A stretch of 64,000 nt of DNA from an uncultured Candidatus Saccharibacteria bacterium (lineage in GTDB: Bacteria > Patescibacteriota > Saccharimonadia > Saccharimonadales > Saccharimonadaceae). Shown here piece by piece: positions 7,957 through 36,242 of the stretch (positions within the stretch are counted from its first letter, which is position 1; the number at the start of each line of letters is the position of its first letter). The position numbers were made by a program, and so were the translations under genes. The notes beneath the pieces are model-generated. The model saw nothing but the letters and a program-made list of their open reading frames with translations, was not told the origin of the DNA and ran no database searches. The stretch lies in NCBI GenBank assembly GCA_946538495.1, contig CAMNGP010000002.1, positions 37,816 to 101,815 on the forward strand, written 5' to 3'.

Positions 7957-8505
7957 TTACTCTACCTGCAAAATTTTGCCAGTGCCTAATTCGAGATGAA
8001 GAAGACGTTGATTCTTGGAACCACGAAATCTTAAGCTTAAATCTCTTTGAGCTAGAATAAATGGTCCATCGATTAATGCATCTAAAGATTTAAGAAGCTC
8101 CCACGGCTCTTTGCCATATTCTTTGATAATCTCATAGGTAAAACCAGAAAAACTCCAAATATTCCAACCAAATTCTTGACGCGCATAATCGGCAATTTCT
8201 TTGCAAGCCTTAGCCTGGACGAATGGTTCCCCACCGCAGAATGTTAGTCCTACCTGACCTTTAAAACTAGCAAGCTCCTTTTTGATATCTTCGATTTTTA
8301 CCAAAGTGCCGCTTTCATAGTCCCAGGTTTCGGGATTTTGACATCCTGGGCAATGATTAGGGCAACCTTGAGTCCAAAGAACCACACGAAGGCCATCACC
8401 ATTAACGATGTTGTCGTGTTCGAGCGGGCCGGAGAGACGAATATATCCCTCCGGCGTTTCGAGCTGTTTAGCGATTTTGGCAAGTGAAATCTTGTGCCAA
8501 TCCAT
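7957..8505 (-). CDS. nrdG: Anaerobic ribonucleotide reductase activating radical-SAM protein
   Basis: 182 residues. The radical-SAM cluster motif CPNHCPGC (CX3CX2C) and the SAM-binding GGEP (FCGGEPF) are present. In known systems NrdG abstracts a hydrogen from a glycine in NrdD to make the glycyl radical. The start codon overlaps the stop of nrdD by one base (TAATG), so the genes are translationally coupled. Its natural substrate here may be the separate glycyl-radical protein at 35805-36242, because the NrdD encoded next door lacks the usual motif. Confidence 0.93.
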   Translation of the reverse strand: MDWHKISLAKIAKQLETPEGYIRLSGPLEHDNIVNGDGLRVVLWTQGCPNHCPGCQNPETWDYESGTLVKIEDIKKELASFKGQVGLTFCGGEPFVQAKACKEIADYARQEFGWNIWSFSGFTYEIIKEYGKEPWELLKSLDALIDGPFILAQRDLSLRFRGSKNQRLLHLELGTGKILQVE

Positions 8506-10700
8506 TATTCCCCTTTCGCGCAGCTGCAGACTTTTTCAAATGGAAGATCACCTTCGAGACGACCACAGTGTGGGCATCGATCTCCGGTAATGACACCCGA
8601 AAAGCCACAAACTGGATCGCGATCAACTGGATGGTTAACCGAACCGTAGCCAACACCTTCGTCGTGCATTTTACGAATCACGGCCTCAAAGGCAGCGATG
8701 TTCTGAGACGGGTCGCCATCGAGCTCGATATAGGTAATGTGGCCAGCATTGCAGAGGTTGTGATATGGCGCCTCAATTTCAATCTTTTCAAAAGCAGAAA
8801 TTGGATAATAAACTGGCACATGGAACGAATTGGTATAAAACTCTCGGTCGGTCACGCCTTTGATTTTGCCGTATTCCTTGCGATCAATCTTAGTAAAGCG
8901 GCCGGCGATACCTTCGGCAGGCGTAGCAAGTAGCGAGAAATTGAGTTTATACTTTTTAGAGAACTGGTCGCATTTTTCGCGCATGTGGGTGATAATATCA
9001 AGACCAAGCTCACGAGCATCTTCATCTTCGCCGTGGTGTTTGCCAACCATAGCAACCAAGGTTTCGGCAAGGCCAATAAAGCCAATTGACAATGTGCCAT
9101 GCTTGATTACATCCCTCAAGGTGTCGTTAGGTCCAAGTTTATCGGAGCCAATCCAGTTCCCTTGCCCCATCAAGAATGGGAAGTTACGAACATGTTGATT
9201 GGCTTGAAATTCAAAACGTTCTAAGAGTTCATCTTTTACTAGGTCAAGTTTTTCGTCGAGCTCGTGATAGAATCCATCCCAATCGGCTTCTTTGCGTTCG
9301 CCTAGGCAAATTCCATGTTTGATGCCGATACGCACTAAGTTGATGGTAGTAAACGAAAGGTTGCCTCGTCCAGTAACGATGCCATCTGATTCTGGGAAGA
9401 TAGACGCAAAAACACGGGTGCGGCAGCCCATGGTAGCAATTTCGGTACGATAATCGCCTGACTTATAATACTTAAGATTGTATGGCGCGTCGATAAAACA
9501 AAAGTTCGGGAAAAGGCGCTTGGCGGAAACTTCCATTGAACGCTTAAATAAATCGTAATTTGGATCTTCGGGATTGTAATTGATGCCTTCTTTTACCTTA
9601 AATATGGAGATTGGGAAGATAGGAGTTTCGCCCTTGCCAAGACCGTTTTCGGTAGCCTGAAGGAGATATTTAGAAACTAAGCGACCCGATGGGCTAGTGT
9701 CTGTGCCAAAGTTGATTGAAGTAAATGGGACCTGCGCACCAGCACGCGAATGCATAGTATTAAGATTGTGTACGAATCCTTCCATGGCTTGAAGAGTTTC
9801 ACGTTCAACATCTTCGCTACTAGCATCGATGACTTCTTTGGGCCATTTAGCCTTCTTAAGTCTAGAATCGTCGCCAAATTTAATATCATCTTTGATTTCT
9901 AATTGCAGTTTTTTGCCGGCAAATTTGTTGTATTTTTCGAGATTCTTCTTTAATGCTTTTCTAAATGATTTGTCTACACCTGGTGCCATGGCATAATCAA
10001 AATTCGGAATAGATTGACCGCCGTGTTGCTCGTTTTGGTTGGCCTGAAGGAGGATGGCGCAAAGAGCAGCATATGAGCCAATTGAGTTTGGAGTGCGCAG
10101 ATGGCCGTGGCCAGTATTAAATCCACCATTTTCGAACATGACAAATGGATCAGATTGGCAACAAGTTAGCGTACCGGTTGCATAAAAATCGAGATCATGA
10201 ATATGAATGTCGCCGTTATCATGGGCAGCGGCAATATCAGGGCGCAAAAGTGCAGATTTGGCAAACATCTTGGAACCTTCAGCACCAAATTGGAGCATTT
10301 TACCCATGGCAGAGTTGCCGTCGACATTAGCGTTGGAGCGCTTAATATCGGAATCTTCAGATGCATCGGCGTGCGAAATGGTGCGATAAATCATCATAAG
10401 GTCAGATTTGGCATCACGAATGCGCGAACGTTCCTGACGATAACGAATATAAGCACGGGCAGTCTTTTTGAAGCTTGATTCCATCAAAACTTCTTCGACG
10501 AGGTCTTGAATTTGTTCTACGTTAGGAGTGCGTGAAGTAATGGTCTCGGCAGCTTTTTTGAGAACCTTATCAGATAAAGCTTTGGCGCGGTCGTACTTGA
10601 ATTCTTCTGTGGCTAGGCCCGCTTTAGCAATGGCTTCGGTGATTTTTTCTGGATCAAATTTGACGATTTTGCCGTCTCTTTTGATAATTCTCTTGAACAT
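8505..10700 (-). CDS. nrdD: Class III ribonucleoside-triphosphate reductase, catalytic subunit lacking the usual glycyl-radical tail
   Basis: 731 residues. An N-terminal ATP-cone (FKRIIKRDGKIVKFDPEKI) is followed by the ten-stranded barrel. Cys pair 180-181 (TLTCCQSDP) and C426 in MGCRTRV match the catalytic and reductant cysteines of the family. The C-terminus has GFSGVITGDRCPHCGR and then ends with VCSCAKGE. The zinc-site segment starts VDRDPVCG, with Asp where the first Cys normally stands. The RxxGYL glycyl-radical motif that normally follows is absent. No frameshift explains this, since nrdG begins at the stop codon. The missing domain is encoded separately at 35805-36242. SD GGAGG and an NrdR-type promoter lie upstream. 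Confidence 0.93.
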   Translation of the reverse strand: MFKRIIKRDGKIVKFDPEKITEAIAKAGLATEEFKYDRAKALSDKVLKKAAETITSRTPNVEQIQDLVEEVLMESSFKKTARAYIRYRQERSRIRDAKSDLMMIYRTISHADASEDSDIKRSNANVDGNSAMGKMLQFGAEGSKMFAKSALLRPDIAAAHDNGDIHIHDLDFYATGTLTCCQSDPFVMFENGGFNTGHGHLRTPNSIGSYAALCAILLQANQNEQHGGQSIPNFDYAMAPGVDKSFRKALKKNLEKYNKFAGKKLQLEIKDDIKFGDDSRLKKAKWPKEVIDASSEDVERETLQAMEGFVHNLNTMHSRAGAQVPFTSINFGTDTSPSGRLVSKYLLQATENGLGKGETPIFPISIFKVKEGINYNPEDPNYDLFKRSMEVSAKRLFPNFCFIDAPYNLKYYKSGDYRTEIATMGCRTRVFASIFPESDGIVTGRGNLSFTTINLVRIGIKHGICLGERKEADWDGFYHELDEKLDLVKDELLERFEFQANQHVRNFPFLMGQGNWIGSDKLGPNDTLRDVIKHGTLSIGFIGLAETLVAMVGKHHGEDEDARELGLDIITHMREKCDQFSKKYKLNFSLLATPAEGIAGRFTKIDRKEYGKIKGVTDREFYTNSFHVPVYYPISAFEKIEIEAPYHNLCNAGHITYIELDGDPSQNIAAFEAVIRKMHDEGVGYGSVNHPVDRDPVCGFSGVITGDRCPHCGRLEGDLPFEKVCSCAKGE

Positions 10701-10738: not shown

Positions 10739-10792
10739 ACGCTACATTTAGTGTACGTTACTTAGTATATAGCACTAAATATGGAATTGCAA
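10739..10792 (-). promoter_or_regulatory. nrdD promoter with NrdR box
   Basis: On the minus strand, TTGCAA (10787-10792) is separated by 17 bp from TATACT (10764-10769). A palindromic NrdR-type box, ACGCTACATTTAGTGT, lies at 10739-10754, next to the start site. A weaker second half-site overlaps the -10 box (10760-10775). The strong box differs by one base from the one before the glycyl-radical gene at 35663. nrdR is present at 27085. Confidence 0.75.
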
Positions 10793-27084: not shown

Positions 27085-27540
27085 CTATCCTTTACGTTTT
27101 GTTTTTTGCTCTTTTAGAATGTTTTCAAAATCTTCGAGGGTTTTGAATTCGCGAAAGACAGAGGCAAAACGAACATAAGCCACTTCATTAACTTCTGCCA
27201 AAACATCTAAGACGGCTTCGCCAATTTGTTTGGAGGTAATTTCATCGGTTCCGAAAGAATAAAGGATGTCTGACGCACGATTAACGACGTCTTCTACTTC
27301 GAGTTCGGAATTAAAGAATTTGCCAACGCTGCGGCGTACGGCCAGTAGAAGCTTGTCGCGATCGAATATTTCTTTATTGCCGCTACGTTTAGTAACGGTG
27401 AGCGGCGGCATCTCGATACGCTCATAGGTAGTAAAACGATGACCATCGGGAGTTTCGCGACGGCGTCTAATCATAGTGCCGTCTACCGTCTCGCGGCTTT
27501 CTAGAACTTTGCTGTCCCCGATACGAAATTTATGTTCCAC
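27085..27540 (-). CDS. nrdR: NrdR transcriptional repressor, zinc cysteines lost
   Basis: 151 residues. The ATP-cone (VTKRSGNKEIFDRDKLLLAV, VAYVRFASVFREF) and the DNA-binding RRRRE..RFTTYERIE are typical of NrdR. All four zinc-ribbon cysteines are absent: the start reads MEHKFRIGDSKVLESR, and RRREC..CG has become RRRETPDGHRF. The GTG start with SD AAAGGAG fits the family length. NrdR represses ribonucleotide reductase genes, and the likely targets here are nrdD-nrdG and the glycyl-radical gene. Confidence 0.92.
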   Translation of the reverse strand: MEHKFRIGDSKVLESRETVDGTMIRRRRETPDGHRFTTYERIEMPPLTVTKRSGNKEIFDRDKLLLAVRRSVGKFFNSELEVEDVVNRASDILYSFGTDEITSKQIGEAVLDVLAEVNEVAYVRFASVFREFKTLEDFENILKEQKTKRKG

Positions 27541-35662: not shown

Positions 35663-35718
35663 ACGCTATATTTAGTGTTAGAAAAGTCTTGACAAACGCT
35701 ATATGTAGGGGTTAGAAT
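35663..35718 (+). promoter_or_regulatory. Promoter with two NrdR boxes before the glycyl-radical gene
   Basis: Box 1 ACGCTATATTTAGTGT at 35663-35678 and box 2 ACGCTATATGTAGGGG at 35696-35711 are 33 bp apart start to start, about three helical turns, as in known NrdR operators. TTGACA (35689-35694), 18 bp, TAGAAT (35713-35718) is the promoter between and under the boxes. A second TATAAT lies at 35735. Confidence 0.8.
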
Positions 35719-35751
35719 GTTCCTAGGTAATGCTTATAATATAAAAAGAAG

Positions 35752-35804: not shown

Positions 35805-36242
35805 ATGAAGAAAATTATCTACCGAAACCAAAATGAGGTTGAGAATTTCGATTTGAAAAGGTTTGTTAAATCTATTAATAAATATGCTAAGGTTTCTGAG
35901 AAAGATGTGAAGGAGGCCTTGGAGGATTTTGATCAATATGATACCATGCACGTTTCTTGCCTCGTAGAAGTCGGCATGAAATTGATTGGCGAAAGAGCTG
36001 GCGATGAAGCTATGAAGGAATACTTCACCGAACACGGGACCTGGTTTGAGGAGGGCAAGTTCGAACGATTGCGCCGAATCACTGGTTATTTGGTCGGCAC
36101 ACTTGATCGCTGGAATGATGCTAAAAAGGCCGAGGAACATGCACGCGTTAAGCACTGTGTAAATTCTTCGATTGATGATGCGGAGAGATTGGCGGCGCTT
36201 GAAACCCAAGCGATGGAACATAACGTTGCATACGCACACTAA
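35805..36242 (+). CDS. Stand-alone glycyl-radical domain protein, predicted NrdD partner
   Basis: 145 residues. Residues 88-117 read ERLRRITGYLVGTLDRWNDA and then KKAEEHARVKH. This is the C-terminal glycyl-radical region of class III ribonucleotide reductases, with predicted radical Gly94. Residues 1 to about 70 weakly resemble an ATP-cone (NEVENFDLKRFVKSINKYAK). The NrdD of this window lacks exactly this segment, and both genes have near-identical NrdR boxes. The arrangement resembles YfiD/GrcA, the spare glycyl-radical domain of pyruvate formate-lyase. SD AAAGGA supports the ATG at 35805. Confidence 0.85.
   Translation: MKKIIYRNQNEVENFDLKRFVKSINKYAKVSEKDVKEALEDFDQYDTMHVSCLVEVGMKLIGERAGDEAMKEYFTEHGTWFEEGKFERLRRITGYLVGTLDRWNDAKKAEEHARVKHCVNSSIDDAERLAALETQAMEHNVAYAH

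Follow-up and report, generated by a model that had tools for sequence, protein, structure and literature searches.

To our knowledge, the known glycyl-radical enzymes carry their radical glycine on the catalytic polypeptide, and the tested exceptions, YfiD and Y06I, are put to use in repair. The class III ribonucleotide reductase (RNR) of Prevotella copri (structure 8p23; PMC11226230) comprises an ATP-cone, a barrel, a glycyl-radical domain (GRD) reading RRITGYLVGTxDRWN, and NrdG. The locus described here presents the same set of parts; unlike in P. copri NrdD, however, the radical glycine lies on a second, separately encoded polypeptide with a predicted ATP-cone fold of its own.

Small proteins that copy the C-terminal GRD of a parent enzyme and add an extra N-terminal half have been described as YfiD/GrcA in E. 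coli and as Y06I in T4 (PMC8683613), and the protein analyzed here follows this plan. Unlike theirs, its GRD is of the NrdD type and not of the pyruvate formate-lyase (PFL) type, and its N-terminal half is a predicted folded cone, whereas that of YfiD and Y06I is disordered. Moreover, the parent enzyme of the truncated clade has no GRD of its own, so that the part would be obligatory rather than a repair item. The complete parent that characterizes YfiD/GrcA is absent from this clade but stands beside the protein in 25 other genomes of the genus.

Other RNRs share single traits with the locus. NrdJa/NrdJb of Pseudomonas aeruginosa (PMC4520616) is likewise a cellular RNR made of two polypeptides, but differs in class (class II), in cofactor (theirs is B12) and in the point at which the protein is divided. 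Leeuwenhoekiella NrdB (5olk), which also has an ATP-cone fused to a radical-carrying subunit and matches structurally with Z 7.9, is a class I ferritin-like metal/radical subunit, as opposed to the glycyl-radical peptide here. Phage RNR genes in pieces, such as Aeh1 nrdA and fragmented phage nrdD (PMC3653736), resemble the present case in their separate reading frames; the phage breaks are mostly caused at the locus itself by introns, inteins or homing endonucleases, whereas here a distinct, distant gene carries an added domain. In the open-access papers searched, no description was found of a bacterial NrdD divided so that the GRD is supplied in trans.

NrdD and the separately encoded radical domain

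The window, i.e., the whole 64-kb stretch of DNA analyzed, belongs to a Nanosyncoccus-type Saccharibacteria genome and encodes an NrdD of 731 residues that ends in CPHCGRLEGDLPFEKVCSCAKGE before its stop codon (Table 1). Profile searches returned matches to the ATP-cone (E 1e-22) and to NRDD PF13597 (E 7e-181), the latter stopping at profile position 529 of 562. The barrel with the thiyl-radical cysteine and the second active-site cysteine is present. C426, the residue singled out in the initial annotation, is indeed the cysteine of TMGCRTR, and C180, C426 and N454 are the equivalents of C171, C416 and N435 in P. copri NrdD (PMC11226230). All three residues and the NAN flap are retained in the truncated NrdDs. 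The predicted zinc site in the segment DPVCG...CPHCG consists of three cysteines and an aspartate, where class III enzymes have four cysteines before the radical loop, and as it is identical in full-length relatives, this pattern is not due to the split.

The radical glycine is absent from the NrdD polypeptide; in the 25 genomes aligned, NrdD stops after FEKV. Downstream of nrdD in the window, neither a hidden GRD nor a GRD remnant was found; nrdG begins within the nrdD stop codon (TAATG), and therefore no hidden GRD follows. At all 53 nrdD loci examined, nrdG was found. A second NrdD was not detected in the genome to which the window belongs (579 kb, 79% complete), nrdD and the separate-GRD gene being present in one copy each, in keeping with the initial annotation, for which a full-length NrdD elsewhere in the genome would have been an objection. 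Truncated NrdDs retain an FE(K/R)(V/L) end that overlaps briefly with FERL of the partner protein, and this overlap resembles the duplicated strand of PFL and YfiD. The C-termini of the truncated NrdDs (8505-8540 in the window) carry short variable tails that are often Cys-rich, e.g., CSCAKGE, CNCAKGE or CDCVNCDCADCSC, and such Cys-rich tails were not found in complete relatives.

Table 1 Features of the 64-kb window that bear on the class III RNR.
Feature	Position	Strand	Basis
nrdG, radical-SAM activase overlapping the nrdD stop codon	7957..8505	(-)	TIGR02491 NrdG, 130.4 bits, above cut-off
nrdD-alpha, class III RNR catalytic subunit without glycyl-radical segment	8505..10700	(-)	ATP-cone, barrel and zinc-site segment
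Predicted NrdR box 2 of nrdD, ACACTAAATGTAGCGT	10739..10754	(-)	Palindrome scan
Promoter-like TTGCAA-17-TATACT of nrdD	10792-10764	(-)	
Predicted NrdR box 1 of nrdD, ATTCCATATTTAGTGC	10772..10787	(-)	Palindrome scan
nrdR, RNR-specific repressor	27112..27516	(-)	TIGR00244, E 7.7e-35, 118.7 bits, slightly below the 124.65-bit cut-off
Predicted NrdR box 1 of radical-subunit gene, ACGCTATATTTAGTGT	35663..35678	(+)	Palindrome scan, upstream of gene
Sigma-70-like promoter TTGACA-18-TAGAAT overlapping NrdR box 2	35689..35718	(+)	11/12 matches
Predicted NrdR box 2 of radical-subunit gene, ACGCTATATGTAGGGG, in promoter spacer	35696..35711	(+)	Palindrome scan
Putative stand-alone radical subunit, divergent ATP-cone and NrdD-type GRD, 145 residues	35805..36242	(+)	Profile, homologue and fold comparison
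N-terminal domain, residues 1-84, predicted ATP-cone fold	35805..36056	(+)	AF2 model and VIA-align
Glycyl radical segment KFERLRRITGYLVGTLDRWNDAKKAEEHARVKH, residues 85-117	36057..36155	(+)	PF13597 positions 532-562; core invariant in 120 homologues
Codon of predicted radical Gly94	36084-36086	(+)	Gly of RRITGYLVG

A gene ~25 kb away, which shares no operon with nrdD and whose ATG is preceded by AGAAAGG, encodes a protein of 145 residues. It covers positions 532-562 of PF13597 (E 2.7e-7), exactly those missing from NrdD, and this is its sole match at a curated cut-off. The protein also matches residues 707-739 at the C-terminal end of P. copri NrdD, whose structure is solved (E 9e-7), but did not match the PFL-type Gly_radical domain PF01228 at E up to 1. 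The initial annotation had proposed an NrdD with a catalytic core that ends after the zinc-site segment and a separate 145-residue protein carrying the GRD motif with Gly94, and both proposals are borne out by the profile matches. Essentially no variation is seen in the motif FERLRRITGYLVG-L-RWND-K-AEE--RVKH among 120 homologous separate proteins, and the GRD peptide with the radical glycine is the most conserved portion. Because this motif is nearly invariant in so many stand-alone proteins and truncated NrdDs occur in 90 genomes, the split is due neither to chance nor to an assembly artefact. The radical-subunit gene is adjoined by a RhuM-Fic fusion gene (PF13310 and PF02661; 36349-37326, minus strand), which is seen at 24 of 80 related loci.

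The N-terminal half of the small protein was modeled by AlphaFold2 with pLDDT values of 67-91 by block for residues 1-80, in the order strand-strand-helix-helix-strand-helix-helix; the GRD half reached a pLDDT of only ~50. The best VIA-align match was the cone of NrdR (Z 10.0, rmsd 2.3 over 77 residues), and ranks 1-36 were all ATP-cones from NrdR, NrdA, NrdB and NrdD (Z 10.0 to 5.5), the first row of another kind having a Z of 5.2. Foldseek matches to this domain were weak (E 0.5 or worse) and came mostly from ATP-cone proteins. By sequence the relation is invisible: hhalign against NrdD cones gave a probability of 6.7%, Pfam PF03477 did not match the domain at E up to 1, and the KRDG-type motif of ATP-cones is replaced by YRNxN. 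Judged by its predicted fold, the N-terminal half is a divergent ATP-cone. With an ATP-cone fold and a GRD, the small protein is therefore in plan an NrdD minus its barrel.

Co-occurrence, ancestry and phage relatives

In a survey of the genus, the state of NrdD and the presence of the separate protein were tabulated for 174 genomes. A GRD-less NrdD was found in 90 of them and the separate protein in 84 of these 90, including 47 of the 47 that are at least 95% complete, so that the pairing put forward in the initial annotation is observed throughout the near-complete genomes, in an association that rests on a single truncation event. The six genomes without a detected partner are all incomplete (71-92% complete), and from incompleteness alone 8.1 such absences would be expected. 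Where NrdD is complete (73 genomes of the genus), the partner is present in 25 and absent in 48. A sample of the order showed three states, namely GRD-less NrdD with the separate protein, complete NrdD with the separate protein, and complete NrdD alone. Across the phylum (379 genomes) the separate protein was found in only two genera and not beyond one family. The named relative Candidatus Nanosyncoccus alces belongs to the group, and ruminant guts are the source of many of the named records. Three genomes of the truncated clade (G313, G358 and G365) each carry the radical-subunit gene in two diverged copies, which could be paralogues or mixed assemblies.

Neither class I/II RNRs nor PFL-like glycyl-radical enzymes were detected in any of 28 genomes tested, the control for the RNR search being detected in 11 of 14. 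The separate protein is therefore the one candidate for carrying the radical of the sole RNR found in these genomes.

In a tree of the NrdD core, built with the GRD columns left out, the truncated NrdDs form one clade (support 100/96) nested among complete NrdDs, and partner distribution among the latter is patchy. According to this tree, the truncation of NrdD arose once. The tree of the separate proteins sets those beside a complete NrdD apart from those beside a truncated one, with a long branch between them (rough support). Within the truncated clade the radical-subunit gene occupies the mutM-polA interval at 79 of 80 loci, mutM being seen at 79 and polA at 74; no synteny of the gene was found between this clade and full-length relatives, whose copies are located elsewhere. 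As synonymous sites were mostly saturated in pairwise dN/dS, codon-position divergence was used instead. For both genes it amounts to ~0.55 at third codon positions and to 0.05-0.15 at first and second positions, and from this large difference it follows that nrdD and the radical-subunit gene are under purifying selection. From the sequences, it looks as if a spare part kept beside complete NrdD turned obligatory after NrdD had lost its own GRD.

The separate GRD protein is also matched by 25 viral contigs. One phage contig (L181:4998-5411) encodes a homologue of 137 residues with the same ATP-cone-like N-terminal domain and GRD (46% identity). Within a few hundred bases of it lies a gene that, on reading its sequence, we take to be DHFR-like, and upstream of the homologue is one that we likewise take to be terminase-like. 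Most other viral contigs (IMG/VR L182-L204; e.g., L189:5001-5114, L188 and L203) encode free NrdD-type GRDs of 45-60 residues, most of which have a start of their own together with a ribosome-binding-like site; the peptide from gut and rumen phages reads M..GxGVKFERIRRITGYLVGTMEKWNDAKKAEERDRVKH. An NrdD core was found on none of six free-GRD phage records examined, which may be fragments. By analogy with Y06I of T4 and its role for PFL, the free GRDs are candidate spare parts of the host's NrdD. In four viral copies the GRD frame is broken by a stop or frameshift at or beside RRI^TGYL (L195:~1970, L200:~5090, L205:~1688 and L206:~5000); in the last of these, Eggerthella phage EL753P1, NrdD terminates at its zinc site and is followed by the pieces of the GRD peptide. 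Such broken frames might reflect recoding, the scars of introns, or decay.

Promoters and predicted NrdR boxes

Both genes were scanned for palindromes with what we take to be the NrdR-box consensus. Only two palindromic pairs in the window score at least 24, and these lie before nrdD and before the radical-subunit gene. Paired NrdR-like boxes 32-33 bp apart are present in 93% of 119 partner upstreams versus 1% of shuffles, and in 98% of 55 nrdD upstreams versus 2% of shuffles. The gene nrdR was found in 28 of 28 genomes tested, and its translation in the window shows a zinc-ribbon end and an ATP-cone. The attributes of an NrdR regulon are hence all found here, with two predicted boxes, a spacer of ~16 bp, overlap with the promoter and nrdR itself. 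The spacing of the pairs agrees with the optimum of 15-17 bp between NrdR boxes (PMC12051234). As NrdR is described in the same work as specific for RNR genes, the promoter ties the small gene to RNR. From these sequences we infer NrdR binding at both promoters.

The radical-subunit promoter is followed by a conserved sequence, GGTAATRCT, which often reads AGGTAATGCTTATAA (35719-35740 in the window). It occurs in 90 of 104 partner-gene leaders, and at this place only in the truncated clade. Its reverse complement, AGYATTACC, was found in the leaders of nrdD in 10 of the 25 clade members, as against 0 of 30 other nrdD leaders. The two elements may possibly serve mRNA-mRNA pairing or represent a common operator.

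Proposed mechanism and alternative explanations

Taken as a whole, the sequences make it very probable that the class III RNR of the clade is composed of two polypeptides, with NrdG activating the small subunit and the latter docking into NrdD. The enzyme would be divided over two genes, with the small subunit giving Gly94 in trans. NrdG would place the radical on Gly94, the radical peptide would enter the NrdD barrel beside C426 and initiate each turnover, and catalysis would then take the course known from other class III RNRs. The ATP-cone would serve as the anchor of the small subunit on NrdD, with nucleotide control as a possible further role. Oxygen cuts glycyl-radical enzymes at the radical peptide, and oxygen damage would for this reason cost the small subunit alone. 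Docking, radical formation, activity and the benefit under oxygen are what we infer from sequence. Originally, the subunit would have been a YfiD-like spare part beside a complete NrdD, and it would have become indispensable once the ancestor of one Nanosyncoccus clade lost the GRD of its NrdD. The earlier reading of a split class III RNR is supported by the analysis, which adds the ATP-cone fold of the N-terminal domain, the partner beside complete NrdD in relatives, and the free GRDs of phages.

Alternatively, the small protein might be only an oxygen-repair part of the YfiD/GrcA kind, and the truncated NrdDs might be decaying in symbionts that take dNTPs from their hosts. The rescue of cleaved PFL by YfiD is established and spare parts for other glycyl-radical enzymes have been predicted (PMC8683613), and a spare-part role fits the 25 genomes of the genus in which the protein stands beside a complete NrdD. 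This alternative is nonetheless very improbable, given that the core of the truncated NrdD retains every catalytic residue and is under strong purifying selection, that the truncation is uniform across 90 genomes, that nrdG, nrdR and the NrdR-box promoters are retained, and that 0 of 47 near-complete genomes show loss of the partner.

It is highly improbable that the NrdD of the clade draws on another radical source, be it the Cys-rich tail or another radical-SAM enzyme, with the small protein acting as a regulator. A CxC-like tail does end many truncated NrdDs, and ATP-cones, the predicted fold of the small protein, are typically regulatory domains; however, conservation of the tail is lacking, as an NrdD that ends in FERLA shows, NrdG is kept, and the strongest conservation falls on the GRD peptide with the radical glycine, which a pure regulator would not need. 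That the truncation is an artefact due to the assembly, a frameshift or an intron is scarcely credible, for although introns, inteins or endonucleases often interrupt phage nrdD (PMC3653736; PMC12363816), here the start of nrdG overlaps the nrdD stop without a GRD remnant, the break is identical in 90 independent assemblies, and the GRD sits at a distant locus between mutM and polA (79/80 loci) with its own promoter.

With a two-polypeptide class III RNR as the preferred reading, an entire bacterial clade appears to make do with a single RNR, the radical of which resides permanently on a separate protein. This would offer a natural two-component system for the encounter of NrdG with the radical loop and for the control of GRD docking by an ATP-cone, and a system for studying how a spare part becomes an indispensable subunit. 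The finding also supports the guess that spare parts exist for non-PFL enzymes (PMC8683613), the phage versions being further candidates. A wider reading, which we hold only tentatively and somewhat short of probable, is that of a re-evolved, alpha/beta-like two-subunit class III RNR: an exchangeable, NrdG-activated radical subunit with a nucleotide-sensing cone would serve several NrdDs and would descend from a family of NrdD spare parts that phages of anaerobes also use on host NrdD. If this were true, the path from spare part to obligatory subunit would be visible.
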